From Maribacter algarum (ex Lu et al. 2025) (nom. illeg.) (GTDB taxonomy: Bacteria; Bacteroidota; Bacteroidia; Flavobacteriales; Flavobacteriaceae), in the NCBI GenBank assembly GCA_947495915.1, contig CANMAW010000002.1, forward strand, positions 124,001 to 188,000: a stretch of 64,000 nucleotides of DNA, in the 5' to 3' direction. A model generated the notes under the pieces. It was not told the origin of the DNA, searched no databases, and was given only the letters and a program-made list of their open reading frames with translations. Of this stretch, positions 46,344 to 61,994 are shown piece by piece; position 1 is the first letter of the stretch, and each line of letters begins with the position of its first letter. A program made the translations under genes and the position numbers.

Positions 46344-46856
46344 TTAAATGTCGACGAGAAGTTTATGGAAAGATTTAATTTTCTCGTCTTCGTTTGAAAT
46401 TTTACTCATGCAGGTTTCTAAGAAAAGTAGAAACGTTTTCTTTTCTTCACCGGTAAACCCTTCTGTAAGGAATTTAATAACTCCTAAACGAGATGGTTGG
46501 GTGTTTTCAACCAAGGTAACCCCTTTTTTAGTAAGTTTTAGACGCTTTTTTCTACGATCATCTTTGTCTTCATATTGTTTTATGAGTCCTTTATCAAGTA
46601 AAACATTAATCAAATTGGTGATATTGGCTCTAGAAACATTTAACGAGTCTGCGAGTTCACTAGCCATTAAGTTTTTAAGGTGTTTCTCTCGTTTGAGAAA
46701 TGGTAAATTTGGGTTATTGGCTAAATGCAAGAGTATAAGCCATTGTTGTGTGGTTAATCCTACCTTTTGATAGACTTCATCACCAATTTTTTTTAATTGA
46801 TTAGAAAGTTCAAAAATGCTTAATACTATTGATTCTTCAATACTTTTTTCTATCAT
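46344..46856 (-). CDS. MarR-family transcriptional regulator
   Basis: A 170-residue winged-helix regulator. The core has LTTQQWLILLHLANNPN, the recognition helix LADSLNVSRANITNLINVLL, and the wing KGLIKQYEDKDDRRKKRLKLT, where D-x-R-D-R-R is the family signature. It probably represses the catabolic genes around it and is released by a substrate or intermediate. It lies 56 nt after the nitrilase-like gene in the same direction and is likely co-transcribed. A small inverted repeat (TCTCA-N5-TGAGA, 46864-46878) stands directly before its start but differs from the GTTAAC operators. Confidence 0.9.
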   Translation of the reverse strand: MIEKSIEESIVLSIFELSNQLKKIGDEVYQKVGLTTQQWLILLHLANNPNLPFLKREKHLKNLMASELADSLNVSRANITNLINVLLDKGLIKQYEDKDDRRKKRLKLTKKGVTLVENTQPSRLGVIKFLTEGFTGEEKKTFLLFLETCMSKISNEDEKIKSFHKLLVDI

Positions 46857-46912
46857 GTTACTGTCTCATTATGTGAGAGAACTAAAAATCGTTGCAATAT
46901 AAGCAGCAATTT

Positions 46913-47959
46913 TTATTTCTGTAATTTTTTAATAACGTTTAGCTGCGTATTTATAAACAACTCTTTATTAGGGTTTTTAGATGCAAAGCTATTTGGGGGG
47001 TAATGTGAATAACTGGCGTATGAAGGTGCATATAGTTCAAAACGCTGTCGAGCATTATAATTCTGCATCGAAACTTTAGATCGATAGTCTCTCAATGCAT
47101 TTATGTCGATGTAACTATTAGCAACCATGCTGCCTCCGGTTCCTGCTTCTGATAATACGTGACCTTCGTATCCAACAATTTTTGATAAGCCATCAGTTGC
47201 TGCGAATGGAAAGGATATACCTGAAATACCCGCAGAATTTGATGAAATTACGTAACTCATGTTTTCAATGGCACGGGCCCTTTTTGCAATATCTTTATGT
47301 GTTAATTGTGGGCTGCCTGCCTCTGATGAAGAATGTAAAAAAATTTCTGCGCCTCGCATCATGAAACATCTTGCTATTTCAGGGTACATTATTTCTTCCG
47401 AAGCTATACAGGCTAACTTTCCTAATGCAGTATCTACCACAGGAAAGAGAGCATCGTCTCCATAAAACTTAATATAATCATCAAGAACATCATGTGGGGT
47501 AGGGGCAAACATTGAGTTTAACCGGCGATACTTAAGAATCAACTCACCCTTGTCGTCAATAATGAAACTACTTTGAAAATATAAATCTGGGAAGTGGTCA
47601 TCTAATTCATAAAAATTACCGGATAAAAATATGGATTGTTCTAAACAGAATTTTTTCATTTGACTGAATAAATCATCATCTGTTTTTAAACAAGCTTTTT
47701 CTTTCCATTGTTCTAGACTTTCTCCAAATGGGAAGCTGGTTAAAAAGTATTCTGGTAAAACAACTAGTTTTAAATCAGGACCGATAAATGCTTTAGAGCC
47801 TCTTATTTCACCCAAAACGGTTTTCAGAGATTTTTGCATTTGCTGATAAGCAGAGTTTCGATTATCACAAGAATTAATTGCGAAACATTCGGTCTGCAGG
47901 GCGAGGGCTTTGTATCGTGGAATCAAATTGAATAATATAGGTTTACTAACAAGATACAA
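46913..47959 (-). CDS. Nitrilase-superfamily protein lacking the usual catalytic Cys and Lys
   Basis: About 348 residues from a TTG at 47959; the true start is uncertain because no ATG precedes the first core strand (KALALQTECFAIN), and an alternative TTG lies 33 nt downstream. The carbon-nitrogen hydrolase fold is clear: LVVLPEYF gives catalytic Glu70. The usual Lys block YRK-x-H reads YRRLN (Arg146). The usual Cys block C-x-x-x-x-F-P-E reads SEEIMYPE (Ser187), with Cys184 three residues earlier. The Glu-Lys-Cys triad is therefore Glu-Arg-Ser. It may be a new variant or non-catalytic. The operator at 47960-47984 abuts the start, so it is controlled with the island. Confidence 0.7.
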   Translation of the reverse strand: MYLVSKPILFNLIPRYKALALQTECFAINSCDNRNSAYQQMQKSLKTVLGEIRGSKAFIGPDLKLVVLPEYFLTSFPFGESLEQWKEKACLKTDDDLFSQMKKFCLEQSIFLSGNFYELDDHFPDLYFQSSFIIDDKGELILKYRRLNSMFAPTPHDVLDDYIKFYGDDALFPVVDTALGKLACIASEEIMYPEIARCFMMRGAEIFLHSSSEAGSPQLTHKDIAKRARAIENMSYVISSNSAGISGISFPFAATDGLSKIVGYEGHVLSEAGTGGSMVANSYIDINALRDYRSKVSMQNYNARQRFELYAPSYASYSHYPPNSFASKNPNKELFINTQLNVIKKLQK

Positions 47960-47984
47960 AAATAGTTAATATTATTAACTATTT
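47960..47984. promoter_or_regulatory. GTTAAC-type operator, nitrilase-like/marR unit
   Basis: AAATAGTTAAT (47960-47970) and its exact reverse complement ATTAACTATTT (47974-47984) are separated by 3 nt. This is the same half-site as at 60485-60564. It sits right at the start of the nitrilase-like gene and should block its transcription when bound by the MarR protein. Confidence 0.65.
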
Positions 47985-48045
47985 ATTAGTAAGAAGTTCA
48001 AGCAATCGATGAAAGTCTTTCTTTACTGGATAAACGTAAGAAAGT

Positions 48046-49119
48046 TTACTCCGCTAATTTAAATTCAAGTGCTGTTTTTGGTGGGTTTTGAGGTGGTGTT
48101 GTTTTTGAAATTAGTTGCCAACTAACGCCCGCGGTATCTGAAAAAACAAAGGCGGCTTCGCCAAATTCATTTTCTTGAATTCTTGTAGGCTTCAATTGGT
48201 GTTCTGTAACTAAGGCGTGTACCATTTCTATTTTTGGGGTATAGAAGGAGTGTAACGTTATTCCCTTTTGCCCTATTTTTTGATGTGATGATTTGTTTGG
48301 TTTATTTCCCCTAGGGATAAAAAATTTCATTTTACCACAAATATTATTTGGTGATACAAAGCCTTGATACCAATGACTAAAACCTGGTTCCATTTGAAAA
48401 ACTCTTTTGGGTCCTTTTAACCAATCACCATCTATGGCGGGTTCATCTTCGGCCTTCAAACCTAAAGCCGTTGATAAATATGACATTTGAGACATATCTT
48501 GGGCATCAATTATGAAATCATGGTGGGTGAACTCACTCGTTTTTAATTTGGTATCGTTATTTATTGTTCCATATCCCGGAATTTTATACCCATATCGTTG
48601 AAAAAAAATGTGGTTAAAGAACTCACCATATACTGCATTTTCTCGCACTAATACCGGACGGTTAAAAAAATCTTTCTCACCAGTATTTAGACCGAATAAA
48701 TCGTCGGCTATTGGTGCTGTGGGTAACCATGGTTTTTTTCCCAAATCACGTGCAGTTTTATAAACATCGTATAATCGAAATATGTCATCAGTCATCATTA
48801 CTGAAATACGTGAGCCTATTGTTTCAACAGGTGTATATCCAATACCATTACCCGTTGGTTTTTCCCATTCTAAAATTCTCAAAAGGCCATGACTATCTAT
48901 ATGTCCATTTTGAAGTCGGTATGATTTGAGCTTTGAATCAAGACCATATAATTCTTGAACTTTGCCTGCATTTAATTCTGCACTTTGCACTACTTTAAAT
49001 CCGAAATCAGCAAAATATTTTAAAGCATAATCAGCATCTTGAACACCAATCATAACCTCATAAAGTCCACTTATACCGGTGTTGGGTATCTTCTTGTTTA
49101 TTTTCGAAGCTGTATTCAT
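48046..49119 (-). CDS. Two-module VOC-superfamily protein (glyoxalase/dioxygenase-like)
   Basis: A 357-residue protein with two VOC halves. The first (about 15-150) begins SGLYEVMIGVQDADYALKYF; the second (about 180-350) has SEFTHHDFIIDAQDM, KGITLHSFYTPKIEM and ends with FVFSDTAGVSWQLI. His and Glu residues on the expected strands could hold one metal ion in the second half. VOC proteins include glyoxalases, epimerases and extradiol ring-cleaving dioxygenases; which applies here cannot be told. It is transcribed with the MDR reductase 43 nt upstream from the shared promoter region at 50159-50246. Confidence 0.72.
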   Translation of the reverse strand: MNTASKINKKIPNTGISGLYEVMIGVQDADYALKYFADFGFKVVQSAELNAGKVQELYGLDSKLKSYRLQNGHIDSHGLLRILEWEKPTGNGIGYTPVETIGSRISVMMTDDIFRLYDVYKTARDLGKKPWLPTAPIADDLFGLNTGEKDFFNRPVLVRENAVYGEFFNHIFFQRYGYKIPGYGTINNDTKLKTSEFTHHDFIIDAQDMSQMSYLSTALGLKAEDEPAIDGDWLKGPKRVFQMEPGFSHWYQGFVSPNNICGKMKFFIPRGNKPNKSSHQKIGQKGITLHSFYTPKIEMVHALVTEHQLKPTRIQENEFGEAAFVFSDTAGVSWQLISKTTPPQNPPKTALEFKLAE

Positions 49120-49162
49120 AGTAGTATAGTTAGTATTAAAAGGTTAATATGACTACTAGTTG

Positions 49163-50158
49163 TTAAGGTTTGAGAATTAGCTTTCCGAAATTATCACCTG
49201 TAAAAAGCATTTTAAGAGTCGGTACATAATTGTCGAGTCCTTCAACAATATGTTCTTTGACATTGATTTTTCCATCGGCAATCCATACAGCCATTTCTTT
49301 AGCGGCTGCAGGCCATTCTTTTATAAAATCGAAAACAATAATGCCGGTCATATAACCTCTTGCACTCACAATTTTCATATAATTTTTTGGGCCATAAATA
49401 TTGCCCATGTCGTTATACTGAGAGATTGCACCACATATAACTACTCGGGCACCTTGAGCCAGATTTAGTAAAGCCGTATCTAAGGTCTTTCCCCCTACAT
49501 TATCATAAAATATATTCAGTCCGGTAGGGGCGTATTCTTTTAGTTTTTGATCTAAATCTTCAGTCTTATAATTGATCGCATAATCAAACCCACATTCATT
49601 AAGCAAAAATTGACATTTAGCATCGCTACCGGCTGAGCCAATAACGGTGCAACCTTTAATTTTTGCAATTTGTCCGACTGTAGATCCAACGACACCTGAA
49701 GCTGCTGAAATATATACTACATCACCTTTTTGAGGTTCACCACGTTTTAGCAAGCCAAAATAAGCCGTCATACCAGGCATTCCTAAAACGCCTAAGTGAT
49801 AAGATAATTTGCCGGATGACATGTCTAAAACGCGAATACCATCTCCAGAAGATATACTATATAATTGAGCGCCTAGAAAGCCTTCTACATAGTCACCAAT
49901 TTTAAACAATTCATTTTTAGATTGAATAACTTTACCCGCAGAAAAACTACGCATAACGGCCCCTATTTCTATTCCTTTGATATAGGTGGTGCCTTCATTC
50001 ATCCAACCACGAATTGCTGGGTCTAACGAAATAGCTTCAATTTGTACTAAAAACTCACCATCTTTTAAAACCGGAATTTCTTCATCAATTAGCGCAAAGT
50101 TATTGTCCTGTATCATACCTGTAGGCCTACTTGCCAGGGCTACTTTTCTATTCGTCAT
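49163..50158 (-). CDS. Zinc-independent MDR NADP-dependent oxidoreductase (CurA/PTGR-like)
   Basis: A 331-residue medium-chain reductase without the zinc-binding Cys residues. Features: LDPAIRGWMNEGTTYIKGIE near the N-terminus, LGMPGMTAYFGLL, and the nucleotide motif YISAASGVVGSTVGQIAK (AASGxVG). Family members reduce carbon-carbon double bonds of enals and enones with NADPH. It is the first gene of the reverse MDR-VOC unit and diverges from the alpha/beta-hydrolase gene; both promoters flank operator half-sites. Confidence 0.88.
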   Translation of the reverse strand: MTNRKVALASRPTGMIQDNNFALIDEEIPVLKDGEFLVQIEAISLDPAIRGWMNEGTTYIKGIEIGAVMRSFSAGKVIQSKNELFKIGDYVEGFLGAQLYSISSGDGIRVLDMSSGKLSYHLGVLGMPGMTAYFGLLKRGEPQKGDVVYISAASGVVGSTVGQIAKIKGCTVIGSAGSDAKCQFLLNECGFDYAINYKTEDLDQKLKEYAPTGLNIFYDNVGGKTLDTALLNLAQGARVVICGAISQYNDMGNIYGPKNYMKIVSARGYMTGIIVFDFIKEWPAAAKEMAVWIADGKINVKEHIVEGLDNYVPTLKMLFTGDNFGKLILKP

Positions 50159-50198
50159 GCGTGTTTTTTTTTGATTATCTTAAATTAAGTAATTAAAT

Positions 50199-50235
50199 AT
50201 AGTTAATATTATGAATAATTAACTACATTAACTAT
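50199..50235. promoter_or_regulatory. GTTAAC-type operator region in divergent promoter
   Basis: ATAGTTAAT (50199-50207) is followed by two direct copies of ATTAACTA (50218-50225, 50227-50234), the opposite half-site. Spacing is wider than the 3 nt of the other sites, so two overlapping or looser sites may be present. The site lies between the divergent MDR and alpha/beta-hydrolase genes. Confidence 0.55.
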
Positions 50236-50246
50236 TATTTTTAAAA

Positions 50247-51287
50247 TTGGAAGATTTGAGCAAAAGTAAAATAGTAACAATTGATGGACAAAAATTACAT
50301 TTTTATGTTTTGGGCACTGGCCCTGATTTAATTTTGTTTCACCCTTCGCCCAGTAGTGCTATTTCTCTTTTACCTTTAGCAAAACAATTATCAGATACTT
50401 ATACGGTATATGGTATCGATACCCCTGGTTATGGAGGCTCTGATTCGTTAGCCCAAGAACCTACTGTCTTAAAAGAGTATACTGATTTCTTACATGTTGC
50501 TTTTTTGAAGCTAGGACTGACGCAACCTGCGATTTATGGTTCAGCCACAGGGGCCCAATTGGCAATTAGATATGGCATAGATTATCCTGAGTATGTATCA
50601 CAATTGTTTTTAGATAATTCTGCGCATTTTGATGATGATTTATGTAATCATATTTTAAAAAGTTATTTTCCTGATTTGACACCAAGTATAGACGGAAGTC
50701 ATCTTCAAACTATATGGACAATGGTTAAGCAAATGTTTCAATATTTTCCTTGGTGTTTTACTTCAGAAGAGTATGCTTTAAATATACCTCAAATGCCTCT
50801 TTTGGTTTTACAAATGGTTGCTATGGACTATTTGAAAGCCGGTAAAGACTATGATGTAGCCTATCGTTTGGCCTTTAAACATGAACGTGGCTATTTTGTA
50901 CAACAGTTACAGGTTCCTACTACTATATTTAGATGGAATAATAGTATAATTGTGCCCTATATTGACAAATTGCTTTCATTCGATTTTCCTGAGCATATAA
51001 AACCGCTTGCCATTAATGGAGGAGCTTCTGAAAGAACCATGCAAATGGTAACTTTTATAAAAAAATCAGTTGAGAAAACCACTAGAGGGCAAATTGCTAA
51101 AAATGCAATTGAAGATGCAATTTTTAATGAAATAATTTATAACAAACCCATGAATACTCCCCCTGAAATTTTAGAAGATGGGAGTCATTTGAATATCGCA
51201 TGGGAACAATTGGTAGCGGTTAATAAAGATATAAGTGCGGCGCATATTCAAAAGTGCTTGGTAGATTGGTTTAATACAAATTCATAA
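50247..51287 (+). CDS. Alpha/beta-hydrolase-fold protein with Ala at the nucleophile position
   Basis: About 346 residues; no ATG is near the start, so TTG at 50247 (or TTG at 50256) is used. The fold is clear: FHPSPSS oxyanion strand, YGIDTPGYGGSD, then the nucleophile elbow, and ILEDGSHLNIAW with a His. The usual G-x-Ser-x-G reads G98-S-A-T-G102, putting Ala100 at the nucleophile and Ser99 one residue early. The next residue is Ala where a second Gly is usual. It may have lost hydrolase chemistry or use another mechanism. It heads a forward unit with the SDR gene 11 nt downstream. Confidence 0.78.
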   Translation: MEDLSKSKIVTIDGQKLHFYVLGTGPDLILFHPSPSSAISLLPLAKQLSDTYTVYGIDTPGYGGSDSLAQEPTVLKEYTDFLHVAFLKLGLTQPAIYGSATGAQLAIRYGIDYPEYVSQLFLDNSAHFDDDLCNHILKSYFPDLTPSIDGSHLQTIWTMVKQMFQYFPWCFTSEEYALNIPQMPLLVLQMVAMDYLKAGKDYDVAYRLAFKHERGYFVQQLQVPTTIFRWNNSIIVPYIDKLLSFDFPEHIKPLAINGGASERTMQMVTFIKKSVEKTTRGQIAKNAIEDAIFNEIIYNKPMNTPPEILEDGSHLNIAWEQLVAVNKDISAAHIQKCLVDWFNTNS

Positions 51288-51298
51288 AAAATATTAGC

Positions 51299-52045
51299 AT
51301 GATAGCAGCTAAATACGAAGCAACAAATACATATGTAGTTATTGTAGGTTCAAATAGTGGTATTGGCCAAGTTCTCATAAAGCAGTTAATAGCATATGGA
51401 ACCACAATTTTTGGTTTAGATATTCAAGAATCTTCAGCAACGCCAATTTCTGATCGTAATTATTATTTTCAAGCAGATTCTACGAATAGTAATGAAGTAG
51501 AAAATGTTTTAAAGCAAATTAAAAATTATACTACACAGATTAATGGTTTGGTAAATCTTGCTGGAACAATTTTACAATTCAAACCGATAGAAGAGTTAAG
51601 CATTGCTGATTGGAATGAAACCTATGATATTAGTTTTAAAAGTTGTTTCAATTCTTGTAGAATTTTTATGCCATTATTAAAGAAAAGTACGGGAGCAGCC
51701 ATTGTAAATATGTCTTCTGGGTTGGCATTTATTGGTCAATTAAATTACGGTCCGTATGCCGCGGGAAAAGCTAGTGTAATTTCTTTCAGTAAAACATTGG
51801 CAGCCGAGACAGCGCCATCAATTAGGGTGAATACGGTTGCGCCAGGTGCAGTTGATACGGGTTTTATCTATAAAAAAGATGGGTCTACACGCTTTAATAA
51901 ACAATTGTATACTAAAATGGTTCCTCTAGGCGCTATTGCTAAACCTGAAGAAATTAGTTCGGTCGTTTTATTTTTATTGAGTAATGGAGCATCTCATATG
52001 ACTGGGCAATGTCTGCATGTAAATGGAGGCGCAAGTATGCATTAA
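51299..52045 (+). CDS. Short-chain dehydrogenase/reductase
   Basis: A 248-residue classical SDR. The cofactor motif is VGSNSGIGQ, with Asp after strand 2 (GLDIQ), which points to NAD(H). Catalytic Ser is in NMSSGLAF, and the Tyr-x3-Lys is PYAAGKAS. The usual NNAG motif reads NLAG. The C-terminus TGQCLHVNGGASMH is normal. It probably oxidises or reduces a hydroxy intermediate of the island's pathway. It is convergent with the BASS transporter gene with 11 nt between stops. Confidence 0.92.
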   Translation: MIAAKYEATNTYVVIVGSNSGIGQVLIKQLIAYGTTIFGLDIQESSATPISDRNYYFQADSTNSNEVENVLKQIKNYTTQINGLVNLAGTILQFKPIEELSIADWNETYDISFKSCFNSCRIFMPLLKKSTGAAIVNMSSGLAFIGQLNYGPYAAGKASVISFSKTLAAETAPSIRVNTVAPGAVDTGFIYKKDGSTRFNKQLYTKMVPLGAIAKPEEISSVVLFLLSNGASHMTGQCLHVNGGASMH

Positions 52046-52056
52046 ACCAGTTGTTA

Positions 52057-52959
52057 TTACTTCTTAGAACTTTCGTTGGTAACAATCATGTTTTTGAAAA
52101 TGTAAATAACACCGATGGCTAAGATACTCATCACTACTCCATATACTCCTGGGGTTGCAGCCATTTCAGGGCTATTTAGTAAGCCCGGTGACATGGCTAA
52201 GGTCATTCCTAAAACATTATTTTGCATCCCACTTTCTATTGATATAGTTGCTGCCTGCCGGGTAGATAGTTTCATTATTTTTGAACTGATAAAGCCAACA
52301 GACAATGTAAAAAAATTTAGCAATAATACACCAACGAAAGCCGCTTTTAAAAAAGACCAGCTATCACCAATTTCTTCCAATTTCAAAATCATAAAAACTA
52401 AAGCGAGAATAATTACAGTTATAGAACCCCATTTAATAGAAGGTCTTGCCTTATCGGAAAAAGTAGGTAATTTATGGTTTACGAACATTCCTAAAAACAC
52501 GGGTAGAGCTGTAAGTTTAAAAATGTTGAAGATGGTTTTTCCTAACGGAAGTTGAATACTTTTTGATGCTTCTCCTAAAATAGCATCCAAAGAAAAGTTT
52601 ATAATTAGCGGAATAGTAAATATAGTTATAAGGCTACTAATAGCCGTAAGAGTTATTGATAAAGCAGTATCACCTTTTGATAAATAGGAAAACAGATTAG
52701 AAACAGCCCCACCTGGACTGCAAGCACATACCATGAGTCCCATGGCTATCATTGGTTGCATAGGAATTAAAAGAACTATTATATACGCAATAAGCGGAAC
52801 AATAAGAATTTGATTCACCAGACCAATAGTAACTGCTTTGGGCGCAGTACCAACACGGGTGAAATCGCGCAAAGTTAAAGTCATACCCATTCCCAGCATT
52901 ACTAAAAACAAAAGCGCTTGTAGTATGGTGGGAATATTGGTAGAAAGAAACTCTGTCAT
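52057..52959 (-). CDS. BASS-family (bile acid:sodium symporter-like) transporter
   Basis: About 300 residues and nine to ten membrane helices. The ATG at 52959 (MTEFLSTNIP) is chosen because an upstream TTG would overlap the preceding gene by 19 nt. Family blocks: FLVMLGMGMTLTLRDF, MVCACSPGGAVSNLFSYLSKGD and SIESGMQNNVLGMTLA, where the Gln/Asn residues help bind sodium. BASS proteins import organic anions such as bile acids, pantoate or 2-oxo acids with sodium. As the last gene of the reverse catabolic operon it probably imports the pathway substrate, expected to be an organic anion. Confidence 0.88.
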   Translation of the reverse strand: MTEFLSTNIPTILQALLFLVMLGMGMTLTLRDFTRVGTAPKAVTIGLVNQILIVPLIAYIIVLLIPMQPMIAMGLMVCACSPGGAVSNLFSYLSKGDTALSITLTAISSLITIFTIPLIINFSLDAILGEASKSIQLPLGKTIFNIFKLTALPVFLGMFVNHKLPTFSDKARPSIKWGSITVIILALVFMILKLEEIGDSWSFLKAAFVGVLLLNFFTLSVGFISSKIMKLSTRQAATISIESGMQNNVLGMTLAMSPGLLNSPEMAATPGVYGVVMSILAIGVIYIFKNMIVTNESSKK

Positions 52960-52970
52960 TAAAAAAAAAT

Positions 52971-54834: not shown

Positions 54835-54922
54835 TGAAGCGTATTTCTATTTGATTAAAATTCTGTAGCAACCTAAGCTTCTAAAGTTTTGTTTGGTAAC
54901 TATAAGAAAAGTTATATGGTTT

Positions 54923-55603
54923 TTATTTTAAACTATTCAGCCAATCAAAAACTTCTTTCACCTCTCTTATATCACAATACTTTAACGATAAGTCGGTTAA
55001 ATTAGCATAATGGTAACTTTCATGCTTATCAGCCACACATTCTTCTGGTATAATTGTTCTATAACCTCTTGAAAGGGAATCTACGCCAGCCGCTCTAACA
55101 CAGCCTGAAGTAGAACCTCCTGTTAAAACAATGGTGTCAATCTGGTGCCAAACCAAAAGCGATTGTAACGGAGTTTCAAAAAAAGGTGAAGGCATCTTTT
55201 TTTCATAAAAGACATCGGTTGCTTTATCAAGAATTAAACGATCGTCGAGTTCAGCACGTTCAGAACCAAATTTGATGTTTTGAAGGCTATCAGGCGTATC
55301 AGTTCGAGTGCCCCAAATGCCAGCGTCTACGGCGGTATCCATATAAGCAACATTGGTCCATACTACAGGCCAGCCAAGTGCTCTAAACTTTGAAGCTAAT
55401 TCATTAACGTAATCAAGTTGTTTGGGGTCAGCTTCATACGCCGTTTTAAATAAATCAGTACGTGTATATGCTTTTTGAAGGTCAATATTTACTAGTGCTG
55501 CTTTTTTGCCGAAACCAAAACGTTTACGTGCAGGATTTGCTTTGACCTCTTGATATATTTCCTTTGCCGTTTTTGTAGTGGTTTGCATTTTTGTTCCTAT
55601 CAT
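54923..55603 (-). CDS. Isochorismatase-family cysteine hydrolase
   Basis: A 226-residue amidohydrolase. The Asp-Lys-Cys triad is visible: Asp41 in ALVNIDLQ, Lys136 in YEKKMPSPF and Cys168 in GGSTSGCVRAAG, with the cis-peptide Gly-Gly/Ser before it. This branch (N-carbamoylsarcosine amidase, maleamate amidase) hydrolyses a linear amide to acid and ammonia, matching the product a ring-opening PuuE-like enzyme would give. It is 88 nt upstream of the deacetylase pair and 18 nt downstream of the NTF2-like gene. Confidence 0.88.
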   Translation of the reverse strand: MIGTKMQTTTKTAKEIYQEVKANPARKRFGFGKKAALVNIDLQKAYTRTDLFKTAYEADPKQLDYVNELASKFRALGWPVVWTNVAYMDTAVDAGIWGTRTDTPDSLQNIKFGSERAELDDRLILDKATDVFYEKKMPSPFFETPLQSLLVWHQIDTIVLTGGSTSGCVRAAGVDSLSRGYRTIIPEECVADKHESYHYANLTDLSLKYCDIREVKEVFDWLNSLK

Positions 55604-55621
55604 ATCATGCAGGGGTTTAAA

Positions 55622-56059
55622 CTATTTTTTCTTTTTAATTTTTGAAGATTGCATGGAGATGATTTTCCATTGCTTTTCATGTTTTGTCCAAACGACAGTT
55701 AATCGGTATCTGCCTTTTTCAAGCGTCTTATATTTGCGCTCATTAATATAATTGGTAAGCACAACATCATTAGATATTGGAAGGAATTCTATTTCAGAAC
55801 TCTCATATATTTCAAAGTTATTTTCAATATTTTTTAATGCGATTTCTTTGTTATACTTTTTTCCACTTTGTGATGTGAGTATCATTTTTGGATGATATAA
55901 AGCATCTGCCATTGCTGAATCACTGTTTAAATGAGCTATTTTCAGTTGCTCAATTTGATGCTCAATTTGGGTGATATTTTCCGAGGAAATATCTTGTGCG
56001 CTACACCAATAGGAAAGGAGTAATGCGAATAGAAATAGTACTTTGATATGGTAATTCAT
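55622..56059 (-). CDS. Secreted NTF2-like (SnoaL/DUF4440) protein
   Basis: A 145-residue protein with a signal peptide ending WCSAQ (about 1-21), so it should be periplasmic. The rest is an NTF2-like cone fold with ALYHPKMILTSQSGKKYNKE and WTKHEKQWKIISMQS, the standard DUF4440 pattern. A basic tail (KIKKKK) closes it. A periplasmic member inside a cytoplasmic catabolic operon is odd; it may bind the substrate before uptake. Function unknown. Confidence 0.75.
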   Translation of the reverse strand: MNYHIKVLFLFALLLSYWCSAQDISSENITQIEHQIEQLKIAHLNSDSAMADALYHPKMILTSQSGKKYNKEIALKNIENNFEIYESSEIEFLPISNDVVLTNYINERKYKTLEKGRYRLTVVWTKHEKQWKIISMQSSKIKKKK

Positions 56060-56063
56060 CTAA

Positions 56064-57245
56064 CTATTCTGTTTTTATAATTCCTTCTGAGATCATTTTT
56101 GAAATGGTCGCTTCATCAATGTTGAGGTCATTTAATACCTCAGCAGTATGCTCGCCAATTTTTGGAGGATCTAATCTTTTATCAACTCTTGTGCCTTTAT
56201 ATTCCAATGGAAATTTAGGAAGTTTTGCAGTTTTTCCGTTGCCCATGTTAACCTCCATAAGACTATTACCTTTGTTAAGTTGCTCATCTTCAAAAAGGTC
56301 TTCTGGTCGGCTAATAGGAGCAAATGGAATATGGCCTTTCTCACATCGGGCTACAATTTCGGCCTTAGTGAATTTTTTAACTCGCTCATTCAAAGCAGGA
56401 ATAAACCATTCACGCTCATCAATACGCAAATTATTAGTTTTTAATCGATCATCTTGTAACCAATCATTCCATTCAAAAACATCACATAAACGTTCCCAGT
56501 GTTTTTCACTAATAATTCCGATAAAAGCCTTGTCGTTATCTTTTGTGTCAAAAACTTTATAAATACTCCAAGCGCTTACTCGAGAAGGCATGGGCGGAAT
56601 TTTATAGTCAATTTGTGACGAGTATGCCATATGTTGCCCCATTAGAAAGGCACAAGTTTCAAATAAGGCTGCTTTAACAAAGCCACCTTCTCCTGTTTTT
56701 TCTCGTTCGTATAAGGCTTGTAATATGCCAATATAGCCGAACATGCCACCAGTAATATCAATTACAGATGTGCCGGCCCGCAAAGGGTCACCTTCACGGC
56801 CGGTCATATAGGCGAGTCCGCCCATCATCTGTACGACCTCATCCATCGCATGGCGTTTCTCGTACGGACCGCTTAAAAAGCCCTTGAGAGAACAATAGAT
56901 GAGTCGTTTGTTCAATGTTTTTAGTTTTTCATACCCCAATCCTAAGCGATCCATTGTGCCGGGTCCGAAATTTTCGACAACTATATCATACCCTTTTACT
57001 AAATCGTATATAATTTGAAGGCCTTCTTCTGATTTTAGGTTTACAGCTAAACTTTTTTTATTTCGATTGTAAAACCAAAAGTAACCAGTACCAAAACCTT
57101 GTAAGCGTCGTGTACTATCACCGTTTGTTGGTTCAACATGCACCACCTCTGCGCCCATGTCTGCAAGCATTAAGCCAGCACATGGGCCCATCACGGCATG
57201 TGTAAATTCTAGAACTTTTAAACCTTTTAATGGAGTACTACTCAT
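56064..57245 (-). CDS. Class III (CaiB/BaiF-family) CoA-transferase
   Basis: A 393-residue CoA-transferase of normal length. The opening LKGLKVLEFTHAVMGPCAG and ENFGPGTMDRLGLGYEKL are family blocks. The catalytic Asp, which forms the acyl anhydride, aligns at Asp163 in SVIDITGGM. Members move CoA between carboxylic acids; the Chloroflexus relative acting on citramalate is paired with an HMG-CoA-lyase-like citramalyl-CoA lyase, as here. It overlaps the CMD/AhpD-like gene by 4 nt and probably activates a (substituted) malate. Confidence 0.9.
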   Translation of the reverse strand: MSSTPLKGLKVLEFTHAVMGPCAGLMLADMGAEVVHVEPTNGDSTRRLQGFGTGYFWFYNRNKKSLAVNLKSEEGLQIIYDLVKGYDIVVENFGPGTMDRLGLGYEKLKTLNKRLIYCSLKGFLSGPYEKRHAMDEVVQMMGGLAYMTGREGDPLRAGTSVIDITGGMFGYIGILQALYEREKTGEGGFVKAALFETCAFLMGQHMAYSSQIDYKIPPMPSRVSAWSIYKVFDTKDNDKAFIGIISEKHWERLCDVFEWNDWLQDDRLKTNNLRIDEREWFIPALNERVKKFTKAEIVARCEKGHIPFAPISRPEDLFEDEQLNKGNSLMEVNMGNGKTAKLPKFPLEYKGTRVDKRLDPPKIGEHTAEVLNDLNIDEATISKMISEGIIKTE

Positions 57246-57808
57246 TTAGTTTCTTTATTTAATGATTGATAAAAAGAGTTTGGTGTGTTTTCTAGTGGTG
57301 TGTTTAATGTAGAATTCCATCGGTTTAAAAACCCGAACATTGCAATTACACTAACAATTTCTACAATAGCTTCATTATCGAAATACCTTTTTAAAAGATT
57401 GAAATCTTCATCACTTGCTTGATTGGGTTGTACACTGGCATTAATTGCAAGTTCAAGAGCTGCTCTTTCGGCGTCAGAAAACAAGGGAGATGTTCTAAAT
57501 TCCCAAATCTGTTCTAGCTTTTCTTTTTTCACCCCTTTTTCATTGGCTCCGAATGCTGTATGTGCACTGCAATATTGACATCCACTCGAAAGACTTGATA
57601 AATGACCTATCATTCGTTTCAAACCTGCGTCTACCTTGCCTTCTGCGTATATCGCTTTAGCCATATCAAAAAAAGAACTTAGAATATCTGGTTTGTGAGC
57701 CATGATTAGCCCGTCATTTGGCATAAAACCCATCCAAGATTCTGCTTGCTGAAATAGTGCCCCTAATGGGCTGTTCTTAGGGTTTTCTATAGGATCTATT
57801 CTGCTCAT
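57242..57808 (-). CDS. AhpD-like / carboxymuconolactone-decarboxylase-family protein
   Basis: A 188-residue all-alpha protein. The redox motif GCQYCSAHT (Cys-x2-Cys-x2-His) places it with AhpD-like peroxidase-related proteins of the CMD superfamily rather than true carboxymuconolactone decarboxylases. It starts 3 nt after the small hydratase subunit gene and overlaps the CoA-transferase by 4 nt, so it is fully embedded in the operon. A role in protecting oxygen-sensitive steps or the iron-sulfur hydratase is possible; no reaction is established. Confidence 0.78.
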   Translation of the reverse strand: MSRIDPIENPKNSPLGALFQQAESWMGFMPNDGLIMAHKPDILSSFFDMAKAIYAEGKVDAGLKRMIGHLSSLSSGCQYCSAHTAFGANEKGVKKEKLEQIWEFRTSPLFSDAERAALELAINASVQPNQASDEDFNLLKRYFDNEAIVEIVSVIAMFGFLNRWNSTLNTPLENTPNSFYQSLNKETK

Positions 57809-57811
57809 AAT

Positions 57812-58318
57812 TTATAACGTGTATGTGCCGTTTTTTGTTAAATAATTTACAAGGCCGCCTTCTGCCAAAATATCAATCATGATATCAGGAAGTTTGGTTG
57901 CCGTATAGGTTATGTTTGCTGTTAGGTCTTTGACAATTCCTGTTTTTAAATCAATATCTAAAAGGGCGTTTTTCTGAATGCTGTGATCTGCAATTTCTAA
58001 AACAGGTAGACCTATATTTATTGCGTTTCTGAAAAATATTCTAGCAAAGTCTTTTGCTATAACAACAGAAACTCCAGATTGCTTGAGCGCCAAAGGGGCT
58101 TGTTCGCGTGACGAACCGCAACCGAAATTAATACCAGCTACTAGAATATCTCCTGGTTTTACTTCTTTGTTAAATTTAGGATCTAAATCTTCTAAAACAT
58201 GATTCGCTAAAGTTGATAAATCAAGGGTTTTAGTATACTTACCTGGTATAATACGATCGGTGTCAATATGGTCACCATATACGTGTGCTTTTGCTCTTAT
58301 ATTGGTTTGTACGGCCAT
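57812..58318 (-). CDS. LeuD-like hydro-lyase small subunit
   Basis: A 168-residue aconitase-superfamily swivelling domain with the substrate-loop motif [12 protein letters not shown], near LeuD length for the homoaconitase/dimethylmaleate-hydratase group (about 165). It pairs with the large subunit encoded 1 nt upstream. No leuA or leuB is near, so leucine synthesis is unlikely. The specificity loop is YGSS-like but begins GCGSS, which does not by itself identify the acyl group. Confidence 0.9.
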
Positions 58319-58319
58319 G

Positions 58320-59555
58320 TTATAAAAGATATTTTTTAGGATTCGTAATTTGACCTTCTAAGGCCGAGGCAGCAACGGTAGATGGTGCGCCAAGGTAGAT
58401 ATTAGAATTTGGGTTGCCCATTCGGCCTCTAAAATTTCTATTTGCAGCTGAAATTACAACTTCACCATCGGCGGGTACTCCTTGATGTGTTCCTACGCAG
58501 GGTCCACAACCTGAAGTTATTAAAGAGGCTCCAGCTTCAATTAAGGTGCTCATGGTGCCATTACTAATTGCATCAAGTAATACACTTTGAGATGCCGGTG
58601 CAATAACCATTCGAACATCCGGATGTATTTTTTTTCCTTTTAATATTTCCGCTGCAACATCTAAATCTTCTAAACGACCATTACAGCAAGTACCTATAAA
58701 TGCATAATTTATTTTAGTGCCTTCATAGTTTGAAATATTATGAACGTTATCTGGCGATTCTGGTGCACTTACTTGTGGTTCTAAATCTGATACATCAAAA
58801 TTGAAAGTTTTGACGTAGTTGGCGTCAGTATCAGGCGTAATAGACTCAAAATCATAATCTAAGGCTAAACCTTTCGGATGTACAATGCCTGTTTTTGCTC
58901 CCATTTCTGAAGACATATTTGCAATAGTCATTCGACTTGCCAAGCTTAAACTTTCAAAAGCTTCCCCGGTAAATTCAATGGCTTGGTAGGTAGCACCTGA
59001 AACGGTTACTTTACCTACTAAGAATAGAATTAAATCTTTAGCTGTTACGCCGTCTTGTAACTTACCAGAACAGTTTATTTGAATTGTTTGCGGTACTTTA
59101 AGCCAAATTTTACCGGTCATCATTGTTGCCGCCAAGTCGGTAGAACCTACACCGCATGCAAATGCATTTAGCGCTCCATAGGTGGGTGTATGTGAGTCGG
59201 CTCCAATAAAAATATCTCCAGGTTTTACATATTGGTTTTCTACCATTACTTGGTGGCATATACCTTCACCAATTTCAAAAAGCCGCATGCCTTGCTCTTT
59301 GGCAAAATCACGCATCATTTTGTGTAAATTAGCAATACGTTCATTAGGAGATGGTGCCGCATGGTCAATAATTAAGGCGCATTTTTCGGGATTAAAAACT
59401 TTTTTTCCTCCCATTTCACGAAATGCCTTAATCGTTAACGGACCCGTGGTGTCACTCGCCATACAGCCGTCTACCTTACTGATAACAAGTTCGCCAGCAT
59501 ATACTTCTTTGCCAACGTGATTTGATATAATTTTTTCTGAAATTGTCTGTCCCAT
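58320..59555 (-). CDS. LeuC-like [4Fe-4S] hydro-lyase large subunit
   Basis: A 411-residue aconitase-superfamily catalytic subunit, shorter than canonical LeuC (about 465) and typical of the homoaconitase/2,3-dimethylmalate-dehydratase branch. Cluster ligands are Cys290 (IGTCCNGRLED), Cys350 and Cys353 (SGCGPCVG). IGADSHTPTYGAL and the GRMGNPNS arginine block are also present. It should add or remove water across a maleate-type double bond. The start overlaps the lyase stop by 1 nt (TAATG-type), and the small subunit follows by 1 nt. Confidence 0.92.
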   Translation of the reverse strand: MGQTISEKIISNHVGKEVYAGELVISKVDGCMASDTTGPLTIKAFREMGGKKVFNPEKCALIIDHAAPSPNERIANLHKMMRDFAKEQGMRLFEIGEGICHQVMVENQYVKPGDIFIGADSHTPTYGALNAFACGVGSTDLAATMMTGKIWLKVPQTIQINCSGKLQDGVTAKDLILFLVGKVTVSGATYQAIEFTGEAFESLSLASRMTIANMSSEMGAKTGIVHPKGLALDYDFESITPDTDANYVKTFNFDVSDLEPQVSAPESPDNVHNISNYEGTKINYAFIGTCCNGRLEDLDVAAEILKGKKIHPDVRMVIAPASQSVLLDAISNGTMSTLIEAGASLITSGCGPCVGTHQGVPADGEVVISAANRNFRGRMGNPNSNIYLGAPSTVAASALEGQITNPKKYLL

Positions 59556-60466
59556 TAAATCATCTTAATTTCTTTGTTATCTATTAGTTGATACACTTGA
59601 CCAGGTAATTTATGACCTAAAGTGCCTTCGATTTCTTTGCTTATAGCTGCAATTTTTGAAATATTTAAGTTGGTTTCATAGCCCATTTGATGTGCAGCGT
59701 TAGCCGTATCTTCGGTTGCTATATTTCCTGTTGCGTTTTTAATAAAAGGGCATCCACCAAGTCCGCCAAAAGCGGTGTCAAAAATGCGTACTCCTGCTTC
59801 GGTTGCGGCATAAAAATTTGCATAACCTTTGTTTTCGGTATTATGTAAATGAAGAATTACTGGAATGTTTCCAGCTTTTTCAAGTATCTTTTCCATTAAG
59901 GAGCGCATTTGATTCGGATTTCCCATTCCAGTAGAGTCTGCCAATGCTAGTTCGTCAATGCCTGTATCTAAATGATGGTCTACCATATCAAGCACATGAC
60001 TGGCTTCAATTTTTCCCTCATACCTACAACCAAAGGCACATTGAATACCTCCCCTAACTTTAATACCTGAAAGTTTTGAAGTGTTTACCATTTTTTTAAA
60101 ATTGACTTTAGCTTCTCGAAGAGTCATTCTAGCGTTTTTTTGACTGTGAAGGTCACTGGCAGAAATAGAACATGCTAGATGATCTAGGCCTGCAGAGATA
60201 GCTCTTTCTACACCTTTGAGATTGAGTACCAATCCACTATATATTACGCCTTCTTTTTTATCAATTTTTTTACAAAGTAGTTCTGCATCAGCCATTTGAG
60301 GAACCAATTTAGGATGTACAAAAGAAGCAACTTGAATACGGGTCATGCCTGCATCAACTAACCTATCGATGTATTCTAGTTTTTTTGATGTGGTAATAAC
60401 TTTCTGTAATGTTTGAAATCCGTCACGGAGTCCTTGCTCTTCAAGTATAATTTTGTTTACATTCAT
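59555..60466 (-). CDS. HMG-CoA-lyase-family retro-aldol lyase
   Basis: A 303-residue DRE-TIM lyase. The catalytic features of HMG-CoA lyase are present: R14-D15 in GLRDGFQ, SFVHPKLVPQMAD, ADSTGMGNP, metal ligands His206 and His208 (ILHLHNT; the usual following Asp is Asn209), and Cys239 in GLGGCPF followed by NATGNIATED. Known relatives cleave HMG-CoA or citramalyl-CoA to acetyl-CoA plus a 2-oxo acid. Being first in the operon, beside a CoA-transferase and hydratase, it probably makes the final cleavage. The operator at 60485-60513 is directly upstream. Confidence 0.92.
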   Translation of the reverse strand: MNVNKIILEEQGLRDGFQTLQKVITTSKKLEYIDRLVDAGMTRIQVASFVHPKLVPQMADAELLCKKIDKKEGVIYSGLVLNLKGVERAISAGLDHLACSISASDLHSQKNARMTLREAKVNFKKMVNTSKLSGIKVRGGIQCAFGCRYEGKIEASHVLDMVDHHLDTGIDELALADSTGMGNPNQMRSLMEKILEKAGNIPVILHLHNTENKGYANFYAATEAGVRIFDTAFGGLGGCPFIKNATGNIATEDTANAAHQMGYETNLNISKIAAISKEIEGTLGHKLPGQVYQLIDNKEIKMI

Positions 60467-60484
60467 ATGAGAAATTGGTCTTTT

Positions 60485-60513
60485 AAAATTAGTTAACTAA
60501 GTTAACTAATTTT
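60485..60513. promoter_or_regulatory. GTTAAC-type operator, best copy
   Basis: AAAATTAGTTAAC (60485-60497) and its perfect reverse complement GTTAACTAATTTT (60501-60513) flank a 3-nt spacer. It lies 19 nt from the lyase start on the reverse strand. The right arm includes TAATTTTA, a near match to a -7 box read on the reverse strand, so binding would block the promoter. Confidence 0.75.
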
Positions 60514-60541
60514 ATTGATTCTAAGGGTGTTTGTTTAAAAT

Positions 60542-60564
60542 AATAGTTAACTTTATTAACTAAT
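60542..60564. promoter_or_regulatory. GTTAAC-type operator before the aldehyde dehydrogenase
   Basis: AATAGTTAAC (60542-60551) and ATTAACTAAT (60555-60564) form an imperfect (8 of 10) inverted repeat with a 3-nt spacer, ending 14 nt before the aldehyde dehydrogenase start. Together with the 60485 site it controls the divergent promoter pair. Confidence 0.65.
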
Positions 60565-60578
60565 TTATAACGAGGTAT

Positions 60579-61994
60579 ATGAAGGTACGAAATCCAAGAA
60601 CGGGCAAATACGATTATGAACTGTTAGAAGACAATGCTGTTGCTGTTAAGAAAAAGGCTGATCAAATAAGAAAATCACAAAAAGAATGGCAGCATCTTAC
60701 TATTAAAGAACGGGTAGCAGTTTTACAATTGTGGTTAGCGAGTTTTACAAAATATCAGACTGAAATTTCTGAGCAACTTGCACTAGATACGGCAAGAAAG
60801 AGAATTTCACAAGTGGAAACTAATGGAATAATTGGCTTGATGCAAGCTTGGAGTTATAGAGCTCCACAGTTATACCAGCCTCCTGCTGAAAGACCTTCAG
60901 CTTCGGCTGCTACTGTTCAAATAGGACAACAATGGATACCCTATACTTTGGTCGGAGTTATTAGTCCGTGGAATTTTCCATTACTATTAGCATTAATAGA
61001 TACCATACCAGCTTTATTAGCTGGCTGCGGGGTATTACTAAAGCCAAGCGAAGTGACACCTCGTTTTATGGATGGACTAGAGAAGAGTATTGCTGAGATA
61101 CCCCAACTTGCGGGTGTGCTGCAATTAGTTCGTGGAGGTGCAGAAGCAGGTAAAGCGGTAGTTAATTCGTCAGATGCTATTTGTTTTACAGGTAGTGTGC
61201 CAACAGGTAAAAAGATCGGAGCAGCATGCGCCGAACGCTTTATTCCGGCATTTTTAGAATTAGGAGGTAAAGACCCTGCTATTGTGCTTGCAGATGCAGA
61301 CTTAGAAGTAGCTACAGATGCAATCTTAAGAAGTTGTGTTGGGGCTACGGGCCAGGCATGCCAATCATTAGAGCGTATTTATGTTGACGAAAAAATTTAT
61401 GACGAATTTGTTGATCAAATAACCATTAAAGCAAAAGCGGTTACCTTAACAATTAACCCAGAAAAGGGCCAAATGGGGCCGTTAATTTTTGAAAAACAAG
61501 CTGAAAAAATTCAGGATCATATTGATGAAGCAGTCGCCAAAGGGGCAAGAGTTTTAGCAGGTGGTAAAGTTGAAAACATTAAAGGCGGCCTTTGGTGTGC
61601 ACCTACAGTTTTGGTTGATGTTGACCATAGTATGGCTGTAATGGTTGAAGAGACTTTTGGCCCAATTATACCAATAATGTCTTTTCAAACCGAGCATCAA
61701 GCTCTTGAATGGGCAAATGATAGTATTTTTGGTTTATCAGCATCTGTTTTTTCAAAAAATAAGGAAAAAGCTATTGATATTGCGACAAAAATTGAAGCCG
61801 GAGCGATAAGTATTAATGACGGTAGTTTAACAAATAAAGTGTTTGATGCTGAAAAGAATTCATTCAAAGAATCTGGAATTAATGGTTCTCGCATGGGTGA
61901 TGCTGGTTTTCTTCGTTTCTTTAGAAAGAAAGCTTTACTGATTCAAACAGCGCATCCTGATACCATGGCTGCTTTTGAAGAGTATCAATCTTAG
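60579..61994 (+). CDS. NAD(P)-dependent aldehyde dehydrogenase
   Basis: A 471-residue ALDH. The cofactor region has FTGSVPTGKKIG; the general base Glu227 is in LELGGKDP, and the catalytic Cys261 in GATGQACQSLER; ETFGPIIPIMSF follows. The family length is normal (about 480). The substrate is not clear; succinate-semialdehyde-type enzymes are closest by eye. It is a single forward gene, divergent from the lyase operon, with an operator directly upstream and a strong terminator downstream. It should oxidise an aldehyde made in the pathway. Confidence 0.94.
   Translation: MKVRNPRTGKYDYELLEDNAVAVKKKADQIRKSQKEWQHLTIKERVAVLQLWLASFTKYQTEISEQLALDTARKRISQVETNGIIGLMQAWSYRAPQLYQPPAERPSASAATVQIGQQWIPYTLVGVISPWNFPLLLALIDTIPALLAGCGVLLKPSEVTPRFMDGLEKSIAEIPQLAGVLQLVRGGAEAGKAVVNSSDAICFTGSVPTGKKIGAACAERFIPAFLELGGKDPAIVLADADLEVATDAILRSCVGATGQACQSLERIYVDEKIYDEFVDQITIKAKAVTLTINPEKGQMGPLIFEKQAEKIQDHIDEAVAKGARVLAGGKVENIKGGLWCAPTVLVDVDHSMAVMVEETFGPIIPIMSFQTEHQALEWANDSIFGLSASVFSKNKEKAIDIATKIEAGAISINDGSLTNKVFDAEKNSFKESGINGSRMGDAGFLRFFRKKALLIQTAHPDTMAAFEEYQS

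Follow-up and report, generated by a model that had tools for sequence, protein, structure and literature searches.

The Pseudomonas-type lower pathway of nicotinate breakdown includes a maleamate amidase of the isochorismatase family (NicF) and a maleate isomerase (NicE). Anaerobic nicotinate fermentation in Eubacterium barkeri involves dimethylmaleate hydratase and dimethylmalate lyase, the last steps of the 2-methylcitrate cycle are carried out by an aconitase and methylisocitrate lyase, and Chloroflexus employs a citramalate CoA-transferase with a citramalyl-CoA lyase. In the nicotinate pathway of Aspergillus nidulans, the PuuE-related enzyme HxnM opens a small cyclic imide and the amidase HxnN then frees ammonia; HxnM has been tied to the Pseudomonas putida imidase, HpPgdA and PuuE (PMC9304392). 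Here we analyse a gene island that lies partly in positions 124001–188000 of contig 2 (C2) of a 4.17-Mb Bacteroidota genome; this whole stretch of 64,000 nucleotides is referred to as the window. Judged by its sequence, the central operon of the island would encode the lower portion of a pathway for substituted-maleimide breakdown under MarR-type control, acting most likely on monopyrrolic fragments of linear tetrapyrroles, and we put the probability of this reading at about 0.5.

The operon is a run of ten genes on the minus strand (60466 to 52057), in which neighbours overlap or are separated by at most 88 bases. It begins with an HMG-CoA-lyase-like acyl-CoA lyase (HMGL, 59555..60466), followed by the HacA/LeuC-type large subunit (LeuC1, 58320..59555) and the LeuD/DmdB-type small subunit (57812..58318; TIGR02087, 198 bits, cut-off 108.95) of hydratase 1, a CMD/AhpD-like protein (57242..57808; Pfam CMD, E = 8.6e-10), a class III CoA-transferase (CoAT, 56064..57245; Pfam CoA_transf_3, E = 9.7e-108) and a DUF4440/SnoaL-like lipoprotein (55622..56059; Pfam DUF4440, E = 1.6e-9). 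An isochorismatase-family amidase (IsoCh, 54923..55603; Pfam E = 4.5e-28), two PuuE-like cyclic amide/imide hydrolases (PuuE1, 53881..54834; PuuE2, 52971..53897, in conserved order) and a BASS-family sodium symporter (52057..52989; Pfam SBF, E = 1.2e-37) complete the run. An earlier note on this DNA had described such a tight operon, and every gene it named is present where it was placed; the CMD/AhpD-like protein, the DUF4440 lipoprotein and, in the flanks, a CN-hydrolase and an alpha/beta hydrolase were missing from its list.

The substrates of the proposed pathway would be hematinic acid and methyl-ethyl- or methyl-vinyl-maleimide, derived from chlorophyll, heme or phycobilins. Uptake of the pigment or its fragments could involve a TonB receptor and transporters, pigment binding the CpeT, DUF1838 and DUF3598 proteins described below, and VOC, flavin and HyuAB enzymes are candidates for pigment cutting. 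PuuE1 and PuuE2 would open the imide to a maleamate, from which IsoCh, as a putative substituted-maleamate amidase, would release ammonia and a substituted maleate; hydration by the aconitase-type LeuCD would give an alkylmalate. The C–C split would be made by HMGL after CoA transfer in this operon, by an HpaI-type aldolase in a second gene set and, in many genomes elsewhere, by an enzyme resembling methylisocitrate lyase. When its ring is opened, hematinic acid becomes HOOC-C(CH3)=C(COOH)-CH2CH2-COOH, i.e. methyl-cis-homoaconitate. Hydration at its methyl carbon and retro-aldol cleavage would yield pyruvate and glutarate or glutaryl-CoA, and the opposite hydration would yield 2-oxoglutarate and propionyl-CoA. 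The logic of imide, half-amide, alkylmaleate, alkylmalate and lyase, already put forward for this locus, is likely, and the PuuE-related imidase provides a precedent for its first step (PMC9304392). Hematinic acid is a product of chlorophyll breakdown both in vitro and in leaves, and maleimides had been reported before from both leaves and sediments, as cited there (PMC7318184).

The proteins were compared with curated family models and solved structures. On the PuuE allantoinase model (TIGR03212), PuuE1 and PuuE2 score 103.1 and 118 bits versus a cut-off of 424.6. PuuE allantoinase is the nearest solved relative of PuuE1 (3cl6, E = 2.4e-22), and N-carbamoylsarcosine amidohydrolase is among the nearest ones of IsoCh. 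The match of PuuE1 to 3qbu (E = 6.4e-9), together with the ties drawn for HxnM (PMC9304392), suggests a family relation to cyclic imide hydrolases of the HxnM and P. putida YZ-26 type. LeuC1 and its counterpart from the second gene set, LeuC2, reach 225 and 210 bits on the 3-isopropylmalate dehydratase model (TIGR00170, cut-off 560.25), versus 621 bits for the separate leuC of this genome on contig C3. On the homoaconitate hydratase subfamily model (TIGR01343, cut-off 385.7), LeuC1 (542.9 bits), LeuC2 (469.1) and a related LeuC from locus L083 (444) all exceed the threshold, none of the three reaching the narrower methanogen HacA equivalog (cut-off 550); in the PDB, LeuC1 matches homoaconitase (4kp2, E = 5.6e-112). 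HMGL matches 6nds (E = 1.1e-62), and the closest solved relative of CoAT is SUGCT (9br6, E = 2.4e-60). The succinate-glutarate CoA-transferase model (NF052585, cut-off 750) gives 233.2 bits for CoAT and 229.9 for a copy on the sphingomonad plasmid pJE1. Lyases linked to IsoCh, PuuE1 and PuuE2 (hereafter the trio) in L083 and pJE1 score 297.5 and 252.6 bits on the methylisocitrate lyase model PrpB (TIGR02317, cut-off 354.4), the L083 enzyme being nearest to methylisocitrate lyase. Methyl-cis-homoaconitate as an intermediate would match both the homoaconitase-family hydratases (LeuC1, LeuC2 and L083 LeuC) and the methylisocitrate-lyase-like lyase.

The island resembles each of the described systems in part. 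As with HxnM and HxnN, a PuuE-related enzyme would precede an amidase, whereas the fungal substrate is a six-membered hydroxyglutarimide and no hydratase or lyase follows. NicF and IsoCh share the isochorismatase family, and the annotation of the pJE1 cluster includes a gene of the Asp/Glu-racemase family, but the NicF/NicE pathway handles unsubstituted maleate, uses an isomerase rather than a hydratase and has no CoA-transferase or lyase. E. barkeri likewise places a lyase after a LeuCD/DmdAB-type hydratase, and 2,3-dimethylmalate lyase (3fa3) is among the matches of the pJE1 lyase (E = 1.6e-41), behind eight higher-scoring sequences; here, however, a CoA-transferase with HMGL, or an HpaI-type aldolase, takes the place of that lyase, and imide and amide hydrolases stand in front. 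The proposed hydration and retro-aldol cleavage to pyruvate and a dicarboxylate parallels the handling of methyl-aconitate in the 2-methylcitrate cycle, except that the substrate would be one CH2 longer (giving glutarate, not succinate) and the PrpB cut-off is missed. Chloroflexus also pairs a class III CoA-transferase with an HMGL-family lyase, for citramalate and without imide hydrolases or LeuCD. In the open-access literature searched we found no description of this gene set, in keeping with the earlier note, and no bacterial gene set that takes chlorophyll pyrrole fragments to central metabolism.

Several genes flank the operon. Towards lower coordinates on the minus strand lie a MarR-family regulator, the proposed repressor (46344..46856; Pfam MarR_2, E = 2.1e-12), an amidase of the CN-hydrolase (nitrilase) superfamily (Nit, 46913..47959; Pfam CN_hydrolase, E = 4.2e-23), a VOC-like protein (48046..49119) and an NADP-dependent MDR (curcumin-reductase-like) C=C reductase (49163..50158; NF058644, 339.9 bits, below the cut-off of 440). 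The VOC-like protein, which flavobacterial relatives keep, was named by eye only: it had no Pfam or NCBIfam match, and a PDB profile search gave none. On the plus strand are an alpha/beta hydrolase (50247..51287; Pfam Abhydrolase_1, E = 1.4e-8), a short-chain dehydrogenase (SDR, 51299..52045; Pfam adh_short_C2, E = 4.8e-46) and, divergent from the operon at its other end, a succinic-semialdehyde-dehydrogenase-like aldehyde dehydrogenase (ALDH, 60579..61994; NF006916, 363 bits, below the cut-off of 521). A TonB-dependent receptor follows on the minus strand (62127..64000; Pfam TonB_dep_Rec_b-barrel, E = 1e-21 for 62127–63134), its frame open to 63998; the N-terminal piece, assigned by eye, lies past the window end (locus L028:1-784), and the two pieces were read apart.

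A palindrome, TAGTTAA-N5-TTAACTA, recurs in the intergenic DNA around the operon. Nine perfect sites occur in the genome, compared to 0.18 expected from base composition, and eight of these fall in C2:171963-240065, which represents 1.6% of the genome (binomial P ∼4e-14, the limits of this stretch having been drawn afterwards from the sites themselves). All eight are intergenic, and seven of them immediately precede a called gene start. Within the window, perfect sites (strand-less, like all of them) are located before Nit (47963..47981) and, as two copies, between the HMGL operon and ALDH (60490..60508 and 60544..60562); a site with one mismatch (50216..50234) separates the divergent MDR and alpha/beta hydrolase genes. 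Past the window, the HpaI-type aldolase, HyuB and a cytochrome c gene each have a perfect site in front of them, another separates DUF1838 from a VOC gene, and one marks the start of a biotin-carrier gene. Sites with two mismatches precede the TonB receptor (L028:915), a DUF3598-LeuC2 block and the gene for homodimeric AceE, the last as a tandem pair. When up to two mismatches are allowed, 17 of 65 genomic sites are inside the stretch (some overlapping), and the window contains five, one of them inside a gene, a count reached by 0 of 100 shuffles. No palindrome immediately precedes marR itself. Among flavobacterial loci (L042–L063), 17 of 22 have at least one perfect site and the other five have a site with one mismatch; pieces from a second family have almost none (one site with two mismatches, in L032). 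The ninth perfect site (C5:299655) marks the start of a gene read by eye as cysteine-desulfurase-like, which may fit the Fe-S cluster need of the hydratases. The MarR-type control postulated in the earlier note is thus supported by a shared palindrome upstream of genes.

The same sites extend the island well beyond its supposed end at 61994. LeuC2 sits 20 kb from LeuC1, in a second block that comprises DUF3598, LeuC2-LeuD2, an HpcH/HpaI-type aldolase, an SDR, HyuA/HyuB (hydantoinase/oxoprolinase), flavoenzymes and a methyltransferase. SnoaL-like, CpeT, DUF1838 and VOC proteins and, by eye, MFS-type transporters are encoded in the same stretch, and all four genomic copies of DUF1838 lie in C2:189511-233977. 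Operator-like sites and partner genes, including this second hydratase/aldolase set, continue to ∼C2:240 kb, or ∼52 kb past the window, for a total of ∼68 kb. In two genomes of another family (G013 and G034), orthologs of Nit, PuuE1, PuuE2 and IsoCh directly adjoin orthologs of second-block genes, and in G013 HMGL is also beside them (58.7% identity over the 121 residues seen), which argues that the two blocks belong together. An ortholog of MarR (46–50% identical) adjoins Nit in G013 and in G131, of another family, and an ortholog of Nit (58–60% identical) is close to PuuE2 in G013, G034 and G131. The biotin-carrier gene opens a propionyl-CoA carboxylase and methylmalonyl-CoA mutase block, read mostly by eye. 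These data suggest that the operon, the second block and the propionyl-CoA-type genes form one regulon-like stretch, a candidate for MarR-type control.

Genes for homodimeric AceE and an E2-like protein (the latter by eye) also lie in the stretch, at C2:191847-196150 (L028:3847-8150), and AceE scores 1229.9 bits on the pyruvate dehydrogenase model TIGR00759 (cut-off 859.9). A methyltransferase of ∼395 aa is paired with a ∼120-aa protein without a Pfam family (L029:6327-7883; counterparts in L032, L119, L121 and L132), and this pair reappears alongside the module in both Bacteroidota and Proteobacteria. Next to the second-block SDR, a HapK/REDY-like protein recurs (L032:7909-8271, L067, L076, L121, L132); the name of this family comes from pigment biosynthesis. 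The downstream genes, i.e. propionyl-CoA-type genes and pyruvate dehydrogenase here and glutaryl-CoA dehydrogenase (GcdH) in other classes, suggest that the products are propionyl- or glutaryl-CoA and a 2-oxo acid. The propionyl-CoA genes of this genome would fit the opposite hydration or ethyl-methyl-malate as an intermediate. Nothing points to acetyl-CoA, the product named originally.

To survey conservation, named genomes were scanned with an isochorismatase alignment, yielding 82 relatives, of which 80 loci were kept; many of these are cut by contig ends. In tblastn counts over the 80 loci, matches covering less than half of the query were dropped, as were those below 45% identity for CoAT, 33% for HMGL and 60% for GcdH. 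PuuE1 and PuuE2 cross-match, and PuuE was therefore counted as at least one or at least two copies. At least one PuuE was found in 72 loci and at least two in 66, with LeuC in 37, LeuD in 37, HMGL in 28, CoAT in 25 and a PrpB-like lyase in 22; by best hit, IsoCh was counted in 71, PuuE1 in 68 and PuuE2 in 65. LeuC, LeuD, CoAT and HMGL are each present in 20 of the 22 flavobacterial loci. For the 58 others, LeuC occurs in 17, and the core plus some lyase in 28. Among the named genomes, records of Maribacter, Croceitalea and other Flavobacteriaceae are the nearest relatives at the locus. The trio recurs in Proteobacteria as well as Bacteroidota, and LeuCD and an HMGL-like or methylisocitrate-lyase-like enzyme often accompany it. 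Lineages represented include Saprospiraceae, Cytophagales, Microbulbifer, Glaciecola, NOR5-3 and Kordiimonadaceae, as well as metagenome-assembled genomes (MAGs) of Rhodospirillaceae-type and other Proteobacteria and one Marinimicrobia MAG. Retention of the core order in distant genomes, a check proposed at the outset, indicates that the gene set is more than a chance assembly.

Isochorismatase matches were also found in 352 plasmid records, 13 of them at 60–80% identity, while a scan of viral contigs with the same alignment gave no relative. On the sphingomonad plasmids pJE1 and pTomTYG65b, LeuD-LeuC-CoAT adjoins HMGL-IsoCh-PuuE1-PuuE2-LeuC-LeuD, and an isocitrate-lyase/PEP-mutase-family lyase is carried as well. 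Like the window genome, these plasmids thus have two hydratases and two lyases, which may serve two substituted maleates that resemble each other without being identical. TomTYG65 stems from work on tomatine degradation, the consulted part of which makes no mention of isochorismatase (PMC10653915). Trio-linked LeuCs outside this genome differ in their score on TIGR00170: pJE1 LeuCb (692 bits) and L121 LeuC (579.6) exceed the cut-off, pJE1 LeuCa (554.7) falls just short, and the L083 LeuC does not reach it. A 219-aa protein of pJE1, encoded next to a weakly DUF3108-like gene (E = 0.0005, below the cut-off), was considered as a diverged CpeT and rejected; it is the counterpart of the 221-aa membrane protein of the island. 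In L082, L083 and L085, a six-gene run beside the trio encodes five proteins related to pJE1 jHyp301, which has a weak VOC/glyoxalase match; four of the five in L083 start with Tat-like signal sequences, by eye.

CpeT is a family of phycobilin lyases. All four CpeT genes of the genome, each above the PF06206 gathering score of 21, are confined to C2:199390-235095, and the sole significant PDB match of one of them, CpeTa, is the phycocyanobilin lyase CpcT (E = 1.3e-6). Among 14 control genomes, CpeT was detected only in Synechococcus elongatus. We defined module carriers in a sample of 397 family genomes by a PuuE1 match of E = 1e-40 or better. Two or more CpeT genes are present in 4/4 carriers versus 0/393 others (Fisher P = 1e-9), and any CpeT in 4/4 versus 26/393 (P = 2.7e-5), both values being uncorrected for relatedness; the carriers have three or four CpeT genes each, within ∼57 kb of the module. 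In a phylum-wide sample of 296 genomes, CpeT occurs in 4/4 module genomes (G131 being assigned on PuuE2, MarR and Nit alone) versus 19/292 others. CpeT and PuuE1 are ∼8–9 kb apart in NOR5-3 (G687) and 12 kb apart in G691, a Kordiimonadaceae MAG; the distance is 17–35 kb in G680, a Saprospiraceae MAG, and ∼20 kb in both G013 and G034. Maribacter vaceletii DSM 25230 (locus L049) has four CpeT genes together with the operon. Separately, alphaproteobacterial MAGs G693, G694 and G696 (loci L082, L083 and L085) have 15, 12 and 9 CpeT-family matches, and a distinct single-copy CpeT group exists in module-less Flavobacteriaceae (e.g. G303, G389, G597), most scoring 100–167 bits.

A second linkage involves GcdH, the need for which would be explained if the hematinic-acid route yields glutarate or glutaryl-CoA. 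A GcdH of at least 60% identity is encoded beside the trio in 8 of the 80 loci, compared to 0.37 expected by chance in 1.46 Mb of locus sequence (P = 5e-9 counting loci). These loci come from three proteobacterial classes (alpha L082, L083, L085 and L120; beta L086, L088 and L089; gamma L119), and in the beta loci GcdH lies directly upstream of isochorismatase. Of 26 genomes searched at E = 1e-100, 24 have one GcdH copy and 2 have none. The best PDB hit of the L083 protein is 4w9u, labelled simply acyl-CoA dehydrogenase, followed by six entries that all bear the name GCD (573–579 bits); on the NCBIfam GlutCoADH_Des equivalog (cut-off 470) it scores 218.6 bits. The earlier note had raised tetrapyrrole-derived maleimides as a speculative source, and CpeT and GcdH linkage lend support to that guess, making it a specific, testable reading. 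We infer a tetrapyrrole origin of the substrate on these grounds. A more tentative proposal, for which we see somewhat less than an even chance, is that the island encodes a dedicated bacterial route of tetrapyrrole mineralisation via hematinic acid and alkylmaleimides, running from methyl-homoaconitate through methyl-homoisocitrate to pyruvate and glutaryl-CoA (or 2-oxoglutarate and propionyl-CoA), with CpeT-family proteins reused as pigment binders.

A number of observations weigh against the tetrapyrrole reading. The 26 family genomes that have CpeT without the module always hold a single copy, and since such copies occur, a CpeT-family protein need not mean a bilin. CpeT is lacking in 24 of 41 isochorismatase-locus genomes (the 41 chosen among the 80 loci), a few of which show isochorismatase alone at the locus, and in the plasmid stretches read (pJE1, pTomTYG65b and four others) BLAST with the island CpeTs found none. 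Of the 80 loci, 72 lack GcdH; counted as three lineages in 80 trials, its linkage has a P of only 0.006, and by tblastn none of the 22 flavobacterial loci has GcdH or a PrpB-like lyase. The island of the window genome was searched for GcdH and has none, the one copy at E = 1e-100 or better being on contig C9. PuuE1, PuuE2, IsoCh and CoAT score well below every curated substrate-specific cut-off, the PrpB-like lyases scanned are also below, and HMGL passes that of the ordinary HMG-CoA lyase subfamily (NF004283, 290.9 versus 246 bits). The match to homoaconitase is not universal, for the pJE1 and L121 LeuCs are under 385.7 bits on TIGR01343 and score as leuC or nearly so. With up to two mismatches the palindrome is rarer (65 sites) than a control read backwards (151), so that its position is all that lends weight to a loose site. 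Among the scanned proteins none was recognised as a known ring-opening oxygenase, although no search was aimed at oxygenases. Finally, the leaf study, in the part of it consulted, detected hematinic acid but no maleimides in leaves (PMC7318184).

The strongest alternative is that the same chemistry (imide, half-amide, alkylmaleate, alkylmalate, lyase) acts on a ring of other origin and passes through citraconate or dimethylmaleate; the ring compound could be an alkaloid, a pyridine or a cyclic imide made by microbes. The enzyme families alone suit any alkylmaleate, the trio is carried by soil and plant-associated plasmids with no CpeT in the stretches read, and propionyl-CoA-type genes by an operator site would fit cleavage of dimethylmalate to propionyl-CoA and pyruvate. 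This explanation leaves both the confinement of CpeT to the regulon and the GcdH linkage unaccounted for, and we regard it as unlikely, if still a serious contender. A ureide/hydantoin or nicotinate-like pathway, with carbamoyl or maleamate cleavage and LeuCD as a maleate hydratase, is improbable. It draws on the solved relatives of PuuE1 and IsoCh noted above and on HyuAB within the regulon, but the PuuE cut-off is missed by a wide gap, the lyases and GcdH have no role in it, and among the genes read no nicotinate hydroxylase or uricase was noticed, though neither was searched for. We consider it very improbable that the island serves to modify or detoxify a pigment rather than to support growth: several possible binding proteins (CpeT, DUF1838, DUF3598, SnoaL-like) and MFS-type transporters (profile-scanned in the G034 copy, by eye in the window genome) would suit such a function, whereas pyruvate dehydrogenase and propionyl-CoA-type genes by operator sites, and GcdH beside the trio elsewhere, argue for use as carbon. 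Ordinary leucine/HMG-CoA breakdown genes assembled with unrelated hydrolases, which the HMGL score alone would permit, were set aside as scarcely credible given the shared palindrome, the conserved order in distant genomes and the separate leuC on C3 that exceeds its curated cut-off.

Elsewhere in the window, an exopolysaccharide-type block (16121–43619) contains a sugar transferase, Wzz and a glycosyltransferase. The same block includes two PKD-domain polysaccharide lyases (31321–32763 and 35357–37759) and a polysaccharide deacetylase (42645–43619).

Taken as a substituted-maleimide pathway, the island looks built to turn nitrogen-ring fragments, possibly derived from chlorophyll, heme or bile-type pigments, into central metabolites. 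Chlorophyll is made and degraded on a scale of 10^12 kg yearly (PMC7318184). If the tetrapyrrole reading is true, it can be tested on a single compound, hematinic acid, using a few purified enzymes, and these genes would provide a direct handle on the fate of chlorophyll pyrrole carbon and nitrogen.

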